Assembly (NCBI RefSeq): GCF_000024025.1
Contig: NC_013131.1
Coordinates: 9,714,229-9,778,228 of the forward strand
Origin: Catenulispora acidiphila DSM 44928
GTDB taxonomy: Bacteria; Actinomycetota; Actinomycetes; Streptomycetales; Catenulisporaceae
DNA length: 64,000 bases
Reading direction: 5' to 3'
Shown: positions 1,577 through 14,175 of the stretch, piece after piece
How the letters are laid out: each line of letters starts with the position of its first letter
Numbering within the stretch: the first letter of the stretch is position 1
Position numbers and translations under genes: made by a program
The notes under the pieces: model-generated
Databases searched by the model: none
What the model was told of the DNA's origin: nothing
The model's input: only the letters and a program-made list of their open reading frames with translations

Positions 1577-2323
1577 TTACCGGCTGCGGTGCCGGCCGCT
1601 CGATGCGACCGAATCCTGGTCGTCGGCCGGGTAGCCGGCGGGCGCGGCCGGGCCGGCCTTGCGGGACTTGCGCCACTCGAAGAAGATCGGCAGCAGCGAG
1701 AGCACCACGATGACCAGGGTGATCGGGATGATGTACTTGTCGACCTTGTCGGCGCTGATCACGTTGGACGCCAGCCGGCCCAGCAGCAGCACGCCGTCGG
1801 CCCAGATGACCCCGCCGATCAGGTTCGCCACGAAGAACTTCTTGGCGGGCATCTCCAGCACGCCGGCGACCGGGTTCATGAACGTGCGCACGACCGGGAT
1901 GAAGCGCGCCAGCACCACGGCCTTGGTCTCGCCGTACTGGTGGAACACCTCCTCGGCCTTGTCGACGTGCTTGCGCTTGAACAGGCGGCTGTCCGGCTTG
2001 TCGAACAGCGGCCGGCCGAAGCGCGCGCCGAGATAGTGCCCGAGCTGGGCTCCGGCCACGGCGCACACCGGCACCGCCAGCAGCAGCAGCGGCAGCGAGA
2101 GGTGGTGGCTGTTGGTCACGCCGGTGGACGTCTTGCCCGACAGGGTGAGCAGGCCGGCGATGAACAGCAGCGAGTCGCCGGGCATGAAGAAACCGATCAT
2201 CAGACCGGTCTCGGCGAAGATGATCGCGCAGACTCCGAGCACGGCGAAGTTGCCGAGCGCGTTGATCCAGTCCGTCGCGGAGATCGGATTGAAGGCCAGG
2301 AATTGGGCCATGGAGGAGGTCAC
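1577..2323 (-). CDS. DedA/SNARE-associated family membrane protein
   Basis: Integral membrane protein of the DedA (SNARE-associated/VTT) family. Members act in membrane homeostasis, and some are undecaprenyl-phosphate or phospholipid flippases. The 248 residues show the family pattern: an N-terminal re-entrant region (FAETGLMIGFFMPGDSLLF), the central RFIPVVRTFMNP-AG motif with conserved arginines, and two C-terminal hydrophobic helices. The start is uncertain: GTG at 2323 or ATG at 2311, neither with a clear ribosome site. The specific substrate is unknown. Confidence 0.9.
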   Translation of the reverse strand: MTSSMAQFLAFNPISATDWINALGNFAVLGVCAIIFAETGLMIGFFMPGDSLLFIAGLLTLSGKTSTGVTNSHHLSLPLLLLAVPVCAVAGAQLGHYLGARFGRPLFDKPDSRLFKRKHVDKAEEVFHQYGETKAVVLARFIPVVRTFMNPVAGVLEMPAKKFFVANLIGGVIWADGVLLLGRLASNVISADKVDKYIIPITLVIVVLSLLPIFFEWRKSRKAGPAAPAGYPADDQDSVASSGRHRSR

Positions 2324-2460
2324 AGGACTGAGGCTACCTTGTCGTTACTACAGCGTGTGGCAGATGGCGGGGGTGCGAACGGGTCCCGGCCTGGTCGGGC
2401 CGGGACTCGGGCGACGCGATGAGCCTGTGACCGGGTTGCTGGGCAGCCTCTCGGCGCCGG

Positions 2461-3360
2461 TCAGCTCGCTTGGTGCAGCGAGCCCACCATACCGAGCAGC
2501 GCCGAGTCGTACTCCGGGTCCACGGAGACGACCGCCGCGACCGCGAACGTGGTCGGAGCCGGTGCGCCGGGCGCGGCGTTGAGCTTCCACAGCATCGGCT
2601 GCACCCCGGAACCGGTATCGCAGGTCACGGCCCACTCGTCGTAGACGGCGGTCGTCGAGCCGGCGAGCGCGTACTTCGGCGAGGAGCGCAGGAGCACCGA
2701 GGTCTTGACCCTGTCGGAGTTCCCGGACGCCGCCGCCGGGCAGGTGATCGCCGAGGCGGAGGCCGCGCCGGCGGGCCACCAGCCGGTGTCCTTGGCCGCG
2801 GTGCTCAGCGGCCAGGTGGCCGCCGTGGCGGCGGACGCCAGGTAGATGCCGTCCACGCCGCAGGGCAGCGCCTGCGCTCCGGTTGCAACCGGAGTCGGCG
2901 CCGGGCGCGTCTTCAGCGTCACACAGCCGGTGGTGGCGGACAAGGAGGTGAGCTGCCAGCCGTCGGCGAGGGTGAAGCCGACCGTGCCGAGGTTCGAGGC
3001 GGTCCCCGCTTGTCCCGCGTTCTGCGCGGGAGTGGGGTTCGAGCCGGTCGGGGCGCCGCCGGTGCTCGGCGCGCCGGTCGACCCGCCCGAGGAGCCCGGC
3101 GAGACGGTGGCATTGCTGCTGCCGGAGTCCGACGGCAGCTGCGCACCGGCGACGACGCCGCCGGCCAGCGCGGCCGCGACGGTGACCGGTACCCACATCC
3201 GGCGCCACGACCACCAGGCGTCGCGCTTGGCCCGCACCCCCGCCGTGTGCTCGTTCGGCGGGATCCCGGGCCTGAGCGTGGAATGCGTGACGAGTTCACT
3301 GCGCGCCTGCAGCGCAGTACGCAGCCTCGTCTCGATTTCTAGCTCGTCCCGCTCTTCCAC
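2461..3360 (-). CDS. Single-pass membrane protein with Ser/Gly/Pro linker and extracytoplasmic domain
   Basis: No named family recognised. From a GTG at 3360 (preceded by TGGGGTG) the protein is 299 residues. It has a short acidic cytosolic N-terminus (ERDELEIETRLRTAL), seen in many actinobacterial anchored proteins, one transmembrane helix at about residues 56-75, a 50-residue Ser/Gly/Thr/Pro linker, then an extracytoplasmic domain with four cysteines (CVTLKTR, LPCGVDG, ITCPAAA, VTCDTG) that could form two disulfides. GTG codons at 3369 and 3423 are alternative starts. Convergent pattern with neighbours gives no functional clue. Confidence 0.7.
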   Translation of the reverse strand: MEERDELEIETRLRTALQARSELVTHSTLRPGIPPNEHTAGVRAKRDAWWSWRRMWVPVTVAAALAGGVVAGAQLPSDSGSSNATVSPGSSGGSTGAPSTGGAPTGSNPTPAQNAGQAGTASNLGTVGFTLADGWQLTSLSATTGCVTLKTRPAPTPVATGAQALPCGVDGIYLASAATAATWPLSTAAKDTGWWPAGAASASAITCPAAASGNSDRVKTSVLLRSSPKYALAGSTTAVYDEWAVTCDTGSGVQPMLWKLNAAPGAPAPTTFAVAAVVSVDPEYDSALLGMVGSLHQAS

Positions 3361-8696: not shown

Positions 8697-9152
8697 ATGA
8701 AGTTCCAGACCGCGATCGACATCGACGCCGCCCCGGCCACCGTATGGCGCGCCCTGACCGACGTGGAGTCCTGGCCCAAGTGGTCCGCCTCCATGACCTC
8801 GGTCGAGCGCCTCCAGCAGGGCGAACTGACCGTCGGCAGCACCGCGCGGGTCACCCAGCCGAAGCTGAAGGCCGCCGTCTACACGGTCACGGAGTGCGAG
8901 CCCGGCAAGTCCTTCGTGTGGGAGATGAAGGCGACCGGCGTGAAGGTCCGCGCCATCCACCTCGTGGAGGACCGGGGCGAAGGCCACGCACGCATGATCC
9001 TCGGCATCGAGCAGACCGGCGCGCTCAGCGGACTCATCAGCATGCTCTACGGCAAGCTCACGCGGCAGTACGTGACCATGGAGGCCGAGGGCTTGAAGAA
9101 GGCTGCGGAGGCAGAGGCGCAGACGTTGGAGTCGGGGACGGCAAGCGACTAA
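8697..9152 (+). CDS. SRPBCC (polyketide cyclase/dehydrase-like) protein
   Basis: A 151-residue START/SRPBCC-fold protein that would form a β-grip cavity for a hydrophobic ligand. The N-terminal pattern IDIDAAPATVWRALTDVESW PKW is diagnostic, followed by the GSTARVTQP and FVWEMKATGVKV strands and a long C-terminal helix. GGGAGGG lies 7 bases before the ATG. The ligand is unknown. It converges on the membrane XRE gene, 11 bases away. Confidence 0.85.
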   Translation: MKFQTAIDIDAAPATVWRALTDVESWPKWSASMTSVERLQQGELTVGSTARVTQPKLKAAVYTVTECEPGKSFVWEMKATGVKVRAIHLVEDRGEGHARMILGIEQTGALSGLISMLYGKLTRQYVTMEAEGLKKAAEAEAQTLESGTASD

Positions 9153-9163
9153 ACGACCGCGGG

Positions 9164-10459
9164 CTACTGCACAACAGCAGTGGTGTCGGGCTCCCAGTCG
9201 TTCGAGCTGGTGTCGTAGTCGTAGATCGGACGCCCCTGCGCGCCGCTGGTCTGGAACGGCTTGCCGTGATCGTCGATCCGGACTGTTCCGGTCCGGCTGC
9301 CACTACTCCAGTCCAGCTCCAGGTACCACGCTGCGTTCACCGTGTGCGCATGCGCATAGACGGTCAACACCTGCGGGTCGGATTCGGAAACCTCAAAAGG
9401 GAAGTCCTCTGCGCGCACCACATTGTCGCCCTGCTGCCCGGCCTTCGGACTCGCGAGTGGCCGGTCGGCGTCCAAGTTGATGCTGAACGACACGGGCATC
9501 AGACCGCCTCCGCATCCCGACGCCATGGAGTACGCGGACCACGGAAGCGGCGCGGCCTTACTGACCGTCCGGACATGCAGCCCTTGCAGCACCACCGTGC
9601 TCGAAGACGTCCCCTGGACCGACAGCTCGATCTTCATGGTCCCGGCCGACACGGCGCCCAGCGCACTGGCCCATCCCCGCGCATCCGCCTCGGTCGGCGG
9701 AGGAGGGACTTCGCCGGGCTTCTTGTTGAGCAAGTACCACTGCTCGCACTTGTCTTCCCACTGATAGGGACGGATGGTCACCGCTATAGGAGGAGCGGAC
9801 GAAGTGGAGGGAGAGGTCGAGGGAGAGGTAGAGGAGGAAGAGTTAGAGGGAGCGGAGCTGGCGCTGCTACCAGTGGCGGCTCCAGTAGAGGAGCTACTAG
9901 GGGCAGAAGCGCTAGGCGGACTCTGTAGAGAAGACGAACTCTGTAGAGGACTCGACGTCGAACTGCTCACTGTCGAAGCTGCGGTCCGGTCAGAGTTTGA
10001 TCCCGGAGATGAGGCAAACGCGACACCCGCAACAGCCGCTCCGACGCCCACCACGGCGAGCACGGCCAAGGCCGGAAGCAGACGTCGCCGCCTCCGTGAA
10101 ACCGGAGACGGAGTAGTCGCTATAGAGGAATCGCCAGAAGAGTCCTCTACGGGAGAAACCGGAGGCGCGGGAGGAGCGGGAGGAACAACGGAAACCGCCT
10201 CAGCAACCGTTGAGGAACGCGCCTCGCCCGCCGCCATCCACAGCCGATACAGCGTCGCCATCTCCGTGGCGGAAGCTCCGGTCAGCCGCGCGAACTTCTC
10301 TATGACGCCGTACTCCGGAGGCACCGTCTCCCCCTGCACATACCGGTGCAGCGTCGAGGTCCCCACATGCAGCCGCTTCGCCAAGACCCCATAACTGAGC
10401 CCTGACCGCTCCTTCAAATCCCCCAGCAGAGCGGCGAAATCCTCCGGCCCCGACACCAC
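9164..10459 (-). CDS. Membrane-spanning XRE-type HTH protein with extracytoplasmic domain
   Basis: A 431-residue one-component-style protein. Residues about 5-65 form a cro/C1-type helix-turn-helix (LSYGVLAKRLHVGTSTLHRY). An RRRRR stop-transfer patch and one transmembrane helix (LPALAVLAVVGVGAAVAG) follow at about 125-150. Next come about 70 residues of Ser/Thr/Pro linker and a C-terminal extracytoplasmic domain of about 200 residues with two or three cysteines. GTG at 10459 is chosen because GGGAGGT sits 6 bases upstream. The topology suggests a DNA-binding head controlled from outside the membrane; the signal is unknown. Confidence 0.82.
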   Translation of the reverse strand: MVSGPEDFAALLGDLKERSGLSYGVLAKRLHVGTSTLHRYVQGETVPPEYGVIEKFARLTGASATEMATLYRLWMAAGEARSSTVAEAVSVVPPAPPAPPVSPVEDSSGDSSIATTPSPVSRRRRRLLPALAVLAVVGVGAAVAGVAFASSPGSNSDRTAASTVSSSTSSPLQSSSSLQSPPSASAPSSSSTGAATGSSASSAPSNSSSSTSPSTSPSTSSAPPIAVTIRPYQWEDKCEQWYLLNKKPGEVPPPPTEADARGWASALGAVSAGTMKIELSVQGTSSSTVVLQGLHVRTVSKAAPLPWSAYSMASGCGGGLMPVSFSINLDADRPLASPKAGQQGDNVVRAEDFPFEVSESDPQVLTVYAHAHTVNAAWYLELDWSSGSRTGTVRIDDHGKPFQTSGAQGRPIYDYDTSSNDWEPDTTAVVQ

Positions 10460-10599
10460 GCGGTTACCTCCCGTCCCGGATCGGCGTCCCGTCCCGGTCC
10501 CTAATCCGCAGCTCATCGTACGGGAAACCGTCCCGCGCCCGCCTCAGAGGCCTCCCACCCCCCTCGCGGCCCGCCCCGGAACAGACAAGCTCCAGAGCC

Positions 10600-11358
10600 A
10601 TGACGAAGCGCATCACTCACATCGCCAAGCCGCTCCTGCCCGCCACCCTCACCCTCTCCGCCCTCATGAGCATGGCGGCCTGTGGCAGCGACTCCCCCAA
10701 GCCTTCCGCCGCAGCCAGCACGCCGAGCGTGAGCCAGTCCCAGCCGGGCACCGCAGCCCCGACACAGACCTCGGCGCCGAACGTGGCCGACACGTCCACG
10801 GGCACCCAGCAGCCCGCCCCGCGCACCGGATCGGGAACGGGAACAGGAAGCGCAACAGCGACAGCGTCGAAGCCCACCACCCCCAAGCCCCCGACTGCCA
10901 AAACCAGCACCGCCCCCGACTCCACCCTCCCCGGCGACTGCTCCGTCACCCACCTCAAGGGCACCGTCACCAACCTCGCCCGCCCCATCAACCACGTCCT
11001 GCTCACCGTGACCAACGCCGGCTCCACCACCTGCAGCCTGTACTACTACCCCGACCTGCGCCTCGACGCCGACCAGCAGGCCGTCACCCAGGCCGTGGAG
11101 GACAGCAAGCCGCAGGCCGTGGTCACCATCGCGCCGGGCGAGTCGGCCTACGCCGCCATCGGCACCTCTTCCGCCGACGGCTCCGGAGGCACTCCGCAGC
11201 TGGAGAAGCAGGTCGAGGTGTTCCTGGAGTCGCGGGACCAGTCCGGCTCCCTGCCCGGCACGATGACGCTGCCGCTGCCCGCCGGCACTTACGTCGACGT
11301 CGACAAGGCGTTCGTCACCTACTGGCAGTCGGACTTGCAGAGCGCCATCGCCTGGTGA
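10600..11358 (+). CDS. DUF4232 lipoprotein
   Basis: A 252-residue exported lipoprotein. The signal peptide ends in SMAAC with Cys28 as the lipidated residue. A 100-residue Ser/Thr/Pro/Lys linker leads to a DUF4232 domain starting at about residue 110 (CSVTHLKG, HVLLTVTNAGSTTCSLYYYPDLRL), with two cysteines likely in a disulfide. DUF4232 proteins are abundant in actinobacteria and their function is unknown. It is divergent from the membrane XRE gene, which could regulate it. Confidence 0.85.
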   Translation: MTKRITHIAKPLLPATLTLSALMSMAACGSDSPKPSAAASTPSVSQSQPGTAAPTQTSAPNVADTSTGTQQPAPRTGSGTGTGSATATASKPTTPKPPTAKTSTAPDSTLPGDCSVTHLKGTVTNLARPINHVLLTVTNAGSTTCSLYYYPDLRLDADQQAVTQAVEDSKPQAVVTIAPGESAYAAIGTSSADGSGGTPQLEKQVEVFLESRDQSGSLPGTMTLPLPAGTYVDVDKAFVTYWQSDLQSAIAW

Positions 11359-11469: not shown

Positions 11470-14175
11470 ATGGAGTCATCACAGGTCGGGATCCGCGAGG
11501 TGCTCGCCATCCCCGACTTCCGCCGGCTGTGGACGGCTCTGTCGCTGTCCAGCCTCGGCGACTGGCTCGGGCTGCTGGCCCAGTCCTCGCTGGCGGCGTC
11601 CCTGGCCGGAGGCGGGTACGCCGGGCGCTCCTACGCGGTCGCCGGCGTCTTCGTGGTCCGGCTGATCCCGGCCGTGCTGTTCGGGCCGATCGCCGGGGTG
11701 GTCGCCGACCGGCTGGACCGGCGCTGGACGATGGTGGCCGGGGACAGCGCGCGCTGCCTGTTCTTCATCTCCATCCCCCTGGTCGGCTCCCTATGGTGGC
11801 TGTTCACCGCGACCTTCCTGATCGAGATCGCGGCGATGTTCTGGATCCCGGCCAAGGAGGCGACGGTCCCGAACCTGGTCCCGCCGCGGCTGCTGGAGTC
11901 GGCGAACCAGGTCTCACTGCTCACCGCCTATGGCACCGCTCCTATCGCGGCCGGCGTGTTCACCGTCCTGTCGCTGATCACGCGCGCACTAGCCGACCAG
12001 TGGACCTTCTTCACCGCCAAACCGGTCAGCCTCGCCCTCTACTTCGACGCACTGACCTTCCTGTTCTCCGCCCTGACTATCGCGCGCCTAAGGACCATCC
12101 CCGCGCGGTCCGCGACAGAGCGCGCAGCGGAGCGCCGCCACACCACCGACAACCGCTCCGTGCTCCGCACCCTCTTCGACGGCTGGCACTACCTCGGGGA
12201 GGACAGGCGGATCCGCGGTGTGATCATCGGCACAACCGGAGCCTTCGCGGCCGGCGGCGCGGTGGTCGGGCTGGCCCGGACCTACGTCGGCGACCTGCAC
12301 GCGGGTCAGGCGGCGTACGGCGTCCTGTTCGGCACGGTCTTCCTCGGCCTGGCCGCGGGGATGTTCACCGGGTCGCGGGTGCTCGCGGGGGTGTCGCGGG
12401 AGCGGCTGTTCGGCTCGGTGATCTTCGCCGCCGGGATCGTGCTCTGCGTGTTCGCGCTGGTGCCGATCCTGCTGCTCAGCGTGCTGTGCGCGCTCGTGAT
12501 CGGCTTCCTCGGCGGGACCGCGTGGATCATCGGGCAGACGATGCTGGGCCGCGAGGTGGCCGACGAGCTGCGCGGCCGGACGTTCGCCTTCGTCCAGTCG
12601 CTGATCCGGGTGACGCTGGTCCTGATCCTGGCCGTGTCCCCGGCGGTGGCCGGAGTGTTCGGCGCGCACACGCTAAGCGTTCCCGGCGTGTCGATCACCT
12701 ATGGTGGCGCGGCCATCACCCTTTTCGGCGCGGGATTGCTCGCGATGGGCGTCGGGTGGGTGGCGTACAGGATGATGGATGACGTGCCAGGGAAATCGTT
12801 GCGGAACGAACTGAAGGCGGCGCTTAAGCGCTCCGCCGCTCCGACGCGCGCCGGGGGCGCTGCGGAGACGGGGACCTCCTCCGGACCGGCGGTCGCAGCC
12901 GCCGGGAACCCGCTGCCGGAAGACACCGGGATCGAAAGGCCCGCACACGCCTACACCGGTACCTTCCTGTCCTTCGAGGGCGGCGACGGCAGCGGCAAGT
13001 CCACGCAGCTGGACCTGCTCGCCGACTGGCTGCGCGGGAGCGGCCACGAGGTGGTGGTCACCCGGGAGCCCGGGGGGACGCCGCTGGGCACCAAGCTGCG
13101 GAACATCGTGCTGGACGCGCACAACGCCGACGTCATCTCCCCGCGCGCCGAGGCGCTGATCTACGCCGCGGACCGCGCCGACCACGTCGAGCGGGTGGTC
13201 CGGCCGGCGCTGGAGCGCGGGGCGGTGGTGATCACCGACCGCTACGTCGACTCCTCCCTGGCGTATCAGGGCGCGGGCCGCGCGCTGTCAGCCCGGGAGG
13301 TCGAGCTGTTGTCGCAGTGGGCCACGCAGGGCCTGATGCCGGACGTCACGATCCTGATGGACCTGGACCCGCTCGAGGCCGCGCGGCGCCGCAAGACCCC
13401 GGCCGACCGGCTGGAGCTGGAGTCCGTGGACTTCCACCGCCGGGTCCGCAACCGCTACCTGGAGCTGGCCACGGCCGAGCCGGAGCGGTTCATCGTGATC
13501 AACGCCATGGAGCCGATCGAGCAGATCGCCGGACGCATCCGGGCCCGGCTGGAGGGCCGGATCCACCTGTCGAGCCAGCAGCGGAGTGAGGAAGCGGAGC
13601 GGCGCGAGGCAGAGCGGCGTAAGGCCGCTGCGGAGCGCGCCGTACAGATGGCAGAGCTCTCCGACGCGGAGCGCCGCCGGGCCGAGATCGAAGCCGAACA
13701 GCGGGACCAGGCGCAGCGCGAGCAGGAGGCGCGGGAGGCCGCGAGCCAGGAGCACCGGCGGCGCTTGGAGGAGGACGCGGCCAGGGCGGAGCGGGCGGCG
13801 CGCGAGCGGGTACAAGGCGCCGGCGACCTGTCCTCGCGGCTGGCGCCGAGCGACCGACCGACGACTCGGCCGACGGCTCGACCGCCGGAGCGCGCAGCCG
13901 ACACGCCGACGACGCGCTCTGCCACGCCCACTCCCCCGCCTTCGGCCAAGCCTCCGACTTCGGCAAAGCCTCCGACCTCGCCCTCCGGTTCGACTCCGAC
14001 CTCGATGTCCCACGCCGAGGAGATCACAGCGCCTCCCGTCCGCAGCGAATGGGAAGTCCCGGACTACGTCGCGCAGCCGGAGTTCGACGACGAGCCGGAG
14101 CAGGACGCGATGTCGATGGCGGACGAGCTGTTCGGAGCCCACCACAGGTCACGGCGCGGCGGTGACGACGCATGA
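11470..14175 (+). CDS. tmk: MFS transporter-thymidylate kinase fusion with coiled-coil tail
   Basis: A 901-residue fusion. Residues 1 to about 440 form a 12-helix major facilitator domain (start IPDFRRLWTALSLSSLGDWL, loop VADRLDRRW). Residues about 497-700 are a complete dTMP kinase: Walker A EGGDGSGKST with Lys510, TREPGGTPLG, the DRYVDSSLAYQG motif and the lid RRRKTPADR. It phosphorylates dTMP to dTDP. A charged Glu/Arg/Ala coiled coil (about 700-790) and a Pro/Thr-rich tail follow. MFS-Tmk fusions are known in Streptomyces. The ATG has no clear ribosome site. The gene overlaps holB by 4 bases. Confidence 0.93.
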   Translation: MESSQVGIREVLAIPDFRRLWTALSLSSLGDWLGLLAQSSLAASLAGGGYAGRSYAVAGVFVVRLIPAVLFGPIAGVVADRLDRRWTMVAGDSARCLFFISIPLVGSLWWLFTATFLIEIAAMFWIPAKEATVPNLVPPRLLESANQVSLLTAYGTAPIAAGVFTVLSLITRALADQWTFFTAKPVSLALYFDALTFLFSALTIARLRTIPARSATERAAERRHTTDNRSVLRTLFDGWHYLGEDRRIRGVIIGTTGAFAAGGAVVGLARTYVGDLHAGQAAYGVLFGTVFLGLAAGMFTGSRVLAGVSRERLFGSVIFAAGIVLCVFALVPILLLSVLCALVIGFLGGTAWIIGQTMLGREVADELRGRTFAFVQSLIRVTLVLILAVSPAVAGVFGAHTLSVPGVSITYGGAAITLFGAGLLAMGVGWVAYRMMDDVPGKSLRNELKAALKRSAAPTRAGGAAETGTSSGPAVAAAGNPLPEDTGIERPAHAYTGTFLSFEGGDGSGKSTQLDLLADWLRGSGHEVVVTREPGGTPLGTKLRNIVLDAHNADVISPRAEALIYAADRADHVERVVRPALERGAVVITDRYVDSSLAYQGAGRALSAREVELLSQWATQGLMPDVTILMDLDPLEAARRRKTPADRLELESVDFHRRVRNRYLELATAEPERFIVINAMEPIEQIAGRIRARLEGRIHLSSQQRSEEAERREAERRKAAAERAVQMAELSDAERRRAEIEAEQRDQAQREQEAREAASQEHRRRLEEDAARAERAARERVQGAGDLSSRLAPSDRPTTRPTARPPERAADTPTTRSATPTPPPSAKPPTSAKPPTSPSGSTPTSMSHAEEITAPPVRSEWEVPDYVAQPEFDDEPEQDAMSMADELFGAHHRSRRGGDDA

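Follow-up and report, generated by a model that had tools for sequence, protein, structure and literature searches.

What does a protein do whose putative DNA-binding head lies on one side of the membrane and whose large outer domain lies on the other, and why is its gene accompanied by a divergent gene for an exported protein? This question is raised by a locus of Catenulispora acidiphila, an organism whose genome is reported to comprise 10,467,782 bases and 9056 protein-coding genes (PMC3035231). The stretch of that genome which was analysed, 64,000 nucleotides in length, is referred to below as the window. The two genes and the parts of the regulator are as follows.

9164..10459, minus strand: regulator gene, 431 aa, with an XRE-type helix-turn-helix (HTH) head, a single membrane helix, a Ser/Thr/Pro stalk and an outer domain
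10466..10472, minus strand: sequence GGGAGGT, resembling a ribosome-binding site, six bases 5' of the regulator GTG
10250..10441, minus strand: HTH_31 domain (PF13560), residues 7-70 of 431 (Pfam scan, E 5.7e-15, over the cut-off)
10013..10081, minus strand: predicted single transmembrane helix, about residues 127-149, with RRRRR on the HTH side (hydropathy only)
9791..10012, minus strand: Ser/Thr/Pro-rich stalk, about residues 150-225, 71% S+T+P (by composition)
9167..9790, minus strand: outer domain, 208 aa, without a Pfam family, with a beta-sandwich model of modest confidence
10600..11358, plus strand: divergent partner gene for a DUF4232 (PF14016) lipoprotein, 252 aa (E 1.2e-27)

The ends of the regulator gene are exact in the window, with a GTG start at 10459-10457 and the last base of the stop codon at 9164. 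A longer alternative start, the in-frame ATG at 10516, would lead to a protein of 450 aa, but part of a conserved upstream element (see below) would then fall within the gene. Only one hydrophobic segment of the 431-aa protein exceeds a KD value of 1.6 (KD 2.47 over 19 residues, by hydropathy and not by TMHMM). Pfam, hydropathy and composition thus confirm the first-pass annotation, which had described an XRE HTH joined through one helix and a stalk of about 70 residues to an outer domain of about 200 residues. The divergence from a DUF4232 lipoprotein gene, also claimed there, is confirmed as well, the partner scoring 97.1 bits versus a curated PF14016 cut-off of 27. The intergenic region between the two genes is 140 bp long (10460-10599), and no sigma-70-like promoter or terminator was found within 10400-10700. 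In composition, the stalk-coding DNA (9791-10012, minus strand) forms a purine/pyrimidine-skewed stretch and the GC3 of the regulator gene is merely 0.72 in a genome of 69.8% GC. Of the neighbouring genes, a convergent SRPBCC gene downstream of the regulator (8697-9152, plus strand) ends 11 bases from it and matches the Rv0910 toxin family below the cut-off (32.2 bits versus 100), and in a 901-aa frame at 11470-14175 (plus strand) an MFS transporter (residues 13-382) is fused with a thymidylate kinase (residues 502-688).

The outer domain matched no Pfam model at E≤1, and comparison of the regulator with the sequences of solved structures gave no match below E 0.31. The outer domains of seven sequences can be aligned over their whole length, and an AlphaFold2 model based upon seven sequences is a beta-sandwich with a mean pLDDT of 63.4 and a pTM of 0.61. 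A Foldseek comparison of this model with the PDB found no match at E≤0.001, while a second structure comparison returned a TRAP-complex chain (Z 8.3, rmsd 3.4 over 103 residues) and ApaG-like domains (Z 6 to 7). As these matches are at the level expected of the common beta-sandwich, we assign no fold, and the structure prediction proposed in the first-pass annotation has yielded a model of modest confidence only. For the DUF4232 domain the structure model (pLDDT 50.1) was too weak for use, and no sequence of a solved structure matched it at E≤1. A possible homotypic pairing, in which the outer domain would be a relative of DUF4232, found no support (profile-profile probability 0.24%).

Of 99 genomes sampled from the Streptomycetales, the order holding Streptomyces, 85 have the outer domain at E≤1e-12, with 1 to 4 copies in each. 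Among the 14 genomes lacking it is one from the genus of the window. Four genomes represent other genera of the family; three of these also belong to the 14, and the fourth shows a weak match only. In a class-level sample, 18 of 197 genomes carried the domain, three of them outside the order (two with strong matches and one with a weak match at 2.9e-11). Among plasmids, 32 of 72,556 records gave matches, 29 of these from Streptomyces, and some matches cover the HTH alone or the outer domain alone. Three plasmid genes annotated as hypothetical proteins (L017 3944-4432, L018 3812-4552 and L020 3764-4450) match the outer domain partially; no HTH was seen on reading those of L017 and L018, and a second L018 gene (4539-5357) is similar by eye.

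Among 145 places found, the census of loci was restricted to those of more than 150 bits (137) and comprised 134 of them, leaving out G088:C767, G089:C307 and G023:C291 as well as the eight weaker places. The window, L002, L028 and L031 are counted in it, and L166 and L206 are not. Within it the orthologues retained both the HTH, which is in frame with the outer domain in 133/134 loci (in L129 it lies in another frame and is counted as lacking), and the membrane helix, which reaches a KD of at least 1.6 in 132/134 (L095 is at 1.29). The linker between HTH and helix and the stalk each have a median of 78 residues (133 loci). The architecture is more than a chance arrangement, because the seven outer domains align end to end and the full layout recurs in 132 of 134 loci. 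The same genome has a paralogue (C1:2322686-2323756, 44% identical) in which the HTH, the helix and the outer domain are all retained and whose gene likewise diverges from one encoding DUF4232. There are eight DUF4232 places in this genome (seven over the cut-off), and such an HTH was present in the examined flanks of only two of them, both beside regulators. At another locus, L005 (G000:C1:7625781-7629209), two adjoining genes (frames 1450-2226 and 1995-3182, plus strand) each show by eye an XRE-type HTH and a membrane helix; one apparently ends in a peptidoglycan-binding domain and the other in what we take to be a Cys-rich outer domain, and this pair may point to a larger group of regulators built from an HTH, a helix and an outer domain.

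The survey of orthologue neighbours suggested by the first-pass annotation covered 2.2 kb upstream of the regulator at the 132 loci with upstream DNA. An exported partner was found on the divergent strand in 116 of these, and on the regulator's own strand in none. The conserved link with DUF4232 that had been anticipated holds in part: DUF4232 accounts for 71 of the 132 loci, whereas in a sister clade it is replaced by a second exported family (45/132), and neither is seen in the remaining 16. What is constant at the locus is hence a divergent exported protein rather than DUF4232 itself. The partner models used for this tally were built from the neighbours of the first 92 loci, for which the count is circular; among 50 later loci that took no part in model building, 19 have DUF4232, 23 the second family and eight neither. 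When 86 divergent neighbours were scanned independently with Pfam, 52 proved to have DUF4232 and three had a PknH-like extracellular match, which was weak (best E 0.0018). The nearest called frame in the first 92 loci was divergent in 86 and tandem in six. Export motifs accompany both families, with a lipobox-like motif in 65/71 DUF4232 partners and an AxA-like motif in 45/45 of the second family. At three of the 16 loci with neither family (L082, L086 and L217) a third kind of exported protein, with a motif like RVADFYGAYIDA, lies upstream of the regulator; L185 is perhaps a fourth, on the basis of a similar signal-peptide start only.

A tree of 141 regulator sequences (133 plus 8 further loci) was constructed by a quick method, and 73 and 50 of these were labelled by the two partner families, respectively, with 18 unlabelled. 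The partner type changes only once on this tree, on a branch with an SH-aLRT of 99, as compared with a mean of 39.2 changes when the labels were shuffled. The single switch indicates a stable linkage between regulator and partner rather than repeated co-selection. Partner distances over 71 loci were more strongly correlated with those of the outer domain (0.71) than with those of the HTH (0.55), which is suggestive, but the comparison is confounded by shared phylogeny and we give it no weight.

The intergenic region contains a conserved element, a candidate operator, in two blocks.

10507..10537, minus strand: conserved upstream element CGCGGGACGGTTTCCCGTACGATGAGCTGCG, first block of the candidate operator
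10472..10490, minus strand: tandem half-sites GGGACG-N7-GGGACG, second block of the candidate operator, 44 and 57 bases after the first GGRAC

In a first set of 11 intergenic regions the first block reads GGRAC-N14-TGA in nine and has an N13 spacing in the two from Actinacidiphila, with SSTG following in each. The tandem GGRACG-N7-GGRACG is found about 43 bases further on, matching at 11 or 12 of 12 positions in seven of the 11 loci; in the other four it was not better than shuffles. A reading of the element as a simple palindrome was rejected, since the TGGAA-N3-TTCCA of some first-set loci is gone from the Streptomyces DUF4232-type loci. With a weight matrix built without the window, the window site ranked first over both strands of the 64 kb (10.2 bits, the next being 6.9). 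Its rank fell to 18th when all Catenulispora sites were withheld and to 25th when only Streptomyces plasmid sites were used, and it was second with a Streptomyces DUF4232-type matrix (-0.1 versus 0.3). In the first operator scan, in which nine training sites were included, 75 of 92 upstream regions reached at least 10 bits, as compared with 1/92 gene interiors and 13/1840 mono-shuffles. By partner these were 39/52 DUF4232-type, 26/27 second-family and 10/13 other loci, so that 13 of the 17 regions below 10 bits are DUF4232-type. A held-out scan at the same threshold gave 45/50 upstream regions, 0/50 gene interiors and 0/1000 shuffles, the 50 loci being relatives of the training loci and not independent events. 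By a regular-expression search the site was absent from 19/132 loci, and some of the sites so found are the downstream block instead of the first. The earlier idea that binding sites lie within 10460-10599 is strengthened by this element, as a candidate operator.

Which protein would recognize this element? The recognition helix (helix 3) of the HTH, STLHRY, and the GGAAC core of the element are both near-invariant across the two clades. Variation is seen at HTH residue 31, which is His in the DUF4232 clade and mostly Gly, Asn, Ser or Ala in the second-partner clade. Of the 67 His31 loci with a matched site, 57 read G..C, six G..G, three A..C and one C..G, and of the 46 loci lacking His31, 44 have a C..G site, a covariation that amounts to nearly one evolutionary split. 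One locus, L083, has the second partner and yet possesses His31, Ser33 and a G..C site, as if the site went with the HTH and not with the partner; this site is a weak one (6.7 bits), and L083 sits on a long branch. The variation of the element subtype with residue 31 is circumstantial evidence that the HTH is the likely reader of the element. In ten Catenulispora genomes the strict element pattern had 25 matches. Ten belong to regulator loci, and the 15 remaining ones are not above the 16 obtained with a reversed-pattern control, although diverged sites would escape this search. Hence, there is no sign in these genomes of a regulon beyond the pair, and control looks local.

An alternative reading of the same element, which we regard as unlikely, is that it is a promoter for a shared sigma factor, with an ECF-like GGAAC as the -35 and CGT as the -10 sequence, and that the membrane protein does not bind there. 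Most loci of the second-partner clade do read GGAAC-N17-CGT, which resembles an ECF promoter as the consensus is generally known, and the N14 spacing from GGAAC to TGA is kept in most loci. However, the DUF4232 clade, including the window, mostly has CCT or GCT in place of CGT (L031 retains CGT), GGRACG-like half-sites recur at +42 to +44 and 13 bases further in seven of 11 first-set loci, and the tracking of residue 31 by the element subtype points to the HTH.

Based upon these observations, we consider it fairly probable that the protein is a single-pass transmembrane transcription regulator, forming a separate family, which binds the element between the pair, so that an envelope signal, possibly by way of the partner, is passed on to the expression of both genes. 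The XRE-type head would bind the conserved element in the 140-bp divergent region and thereby set transcription of both its own gene and the exported-partner gene. With the stalk keeping it at a distance from the membrane, the outer domain would read an envelope condition, and the exported partner would most likely join in this reading, either as a bound co-sensor or as the quantity that is sensed. Regulator and partner would thus form a feedback loop confined to their locus, with no regulon beyond it. Binding of the element by the HTH, control of both genes and contact between outer domain and partner are the steps that we infer from sequence comparisons. A more specific form of this proposal, which we offer tentatively and hold to be somewhat doubtful, is a co-component class of the Streptomycetales, in which an XRE-headed membrane regulator would have the shared divergent promoter as its sole target and its outer domain would bind a dedicated exported protein. 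The product would then report the state of the envelope to its own promoter, and the two clades would each be locked to their own partner family. If the general proposal is correct, the pair would be a minimal and portable switch leading from the membrane to the DNA, for which an operator is predicted, and it would give a first clue to what DUF4232, a domain of unknown function, does.

Two other modes of signalling were considered. In a regulated-proteolysis scheme, to which we assign a low probability, the outer domain or the partner would trigger cleavage and the freed head would act as a soluble repressor or activator; the long linker and the long exposed stalk (both with a median of 78 residues, as above) are compatible with it, but no positive sign of it emerged from the domain, hydropathy and composition analyses of the regulator. 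A thiol-disulfide switch appears more doubtful still. Here, two invariant cysteines of the outer domain would sense a redox or metal state and the partner would merely be a regulated product. The two residues, Cys238 (9746-9748) and Cys316 (9512-9514), are kept in 134/134 loci, and a C-x-C pair is added to the outer domain in about 0.9 of the loci of the second-partner clade. However, both cysteines lie in or beside low-confidence parts of the outer-domain model, and invariant cysteines in exported domains are commonly structural.

Lastly, RodZ possesses an XRE-like HTH (an HTH_25 head), one helix, an outer beta domain and a RodZ C-terminal domain. A RodZ-like scaffold role on this pattern, with the HTH binding a cytoskeletal or division protein and the outer domain engaging the cell wall, is very improbable, as neither the HTH_25 nor the RodZ C-terminal model matched the regulator at E≤1 in the Pfam scan, STLHRY is near-invariant, a conserved upstream DNA element accompanies the gene, there are up to four copies per genome as well as plasmid copies, which would be odd for RodZ, and a divergent exported partner is present.

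The preferred reading, a membrane-tethered regulator acting on the element of its own locus, can be compared with several known systems. The head of CadC is an OmpR-type winged helix. In the regulator a Pfam scan at E≤1 matched HTH_31 and weaker HTH models and found no winged helix of this type, so that the CadC-like character proposed in the first-pass annotation applies to the layout, which is one-component and membrane-tethered in both (CadC is named in PMC10140157 and PMC10269533), and not to the head, which is XRE-type. Transmembrane transcription regulators (TTRs) are defined by a predicted DNA-binding domain and a predicted transmembrane region in one protein (PMC10269533), and the regulator has both a DNA-binding domain (HTH_31) and at least one transmembrane region (by hydropathy), sharing with TTRs the single-pass, one-protein layout. 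TTRs also answer extracellular information with a change in transcription, as the regulator would in the reading preferred here. That survey covers the whole class, and in the part of it available to us no such family, partner or operator is described (PMC10269533). A literature search, the coverage of which excluded most subscription papers, found no paper with the word DUF4232 and, among the papers listed, none on such a regulator-partner pair. The kind of regulator is thus already known, whereas a family that combines this partner rule with this candidate operator is undescribed as far as these searches go, and it suggests a little-studied route by which genes would be controlled straight from the cell surface.

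BcrR has an XRE-type head and several membrane helices and lacks a large outer domain. The regulator shares this type of head and differs in having a large outer domain and one membrane helix, no more than one hydrophobic segment being seen over KD 1.6. As a one-component transmembrane regulator encoded beside its target, BcrR of Enterococcus faecalis (PMC3968067) resembles the arrangement proposed here. In the XRE-DUF397 pairs of Streptomyces an XRE regulator also has a dedicated neighbour, the DUF397 gene located downstream (PMC10364602), whereas our regulator has a convergent SRPBCC gene in that position and a membrane helix of its own. In layout the regulator resembles the co-component systems VtrA-VtrC, ToxR-ToxS and TcpP-TcpH, which combine an N-terminal DNA-binding domain, one helix and a C-terminal outer domain with a dedicated exported partner encoded alongside; these partners share an operon arrangement, are lipocalin-like and form obligate heterodimers (PMC10140157). 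The regulator has the same order of N-terminal HTH, single helix and C-terminal outer domain. It differs from these systems in its XRE-type head, in having partners from two unrelated families and in the placement of the partner, which is divergent in 116 of the 132 loci and never on the regulator's strand, in place of a shared operon.
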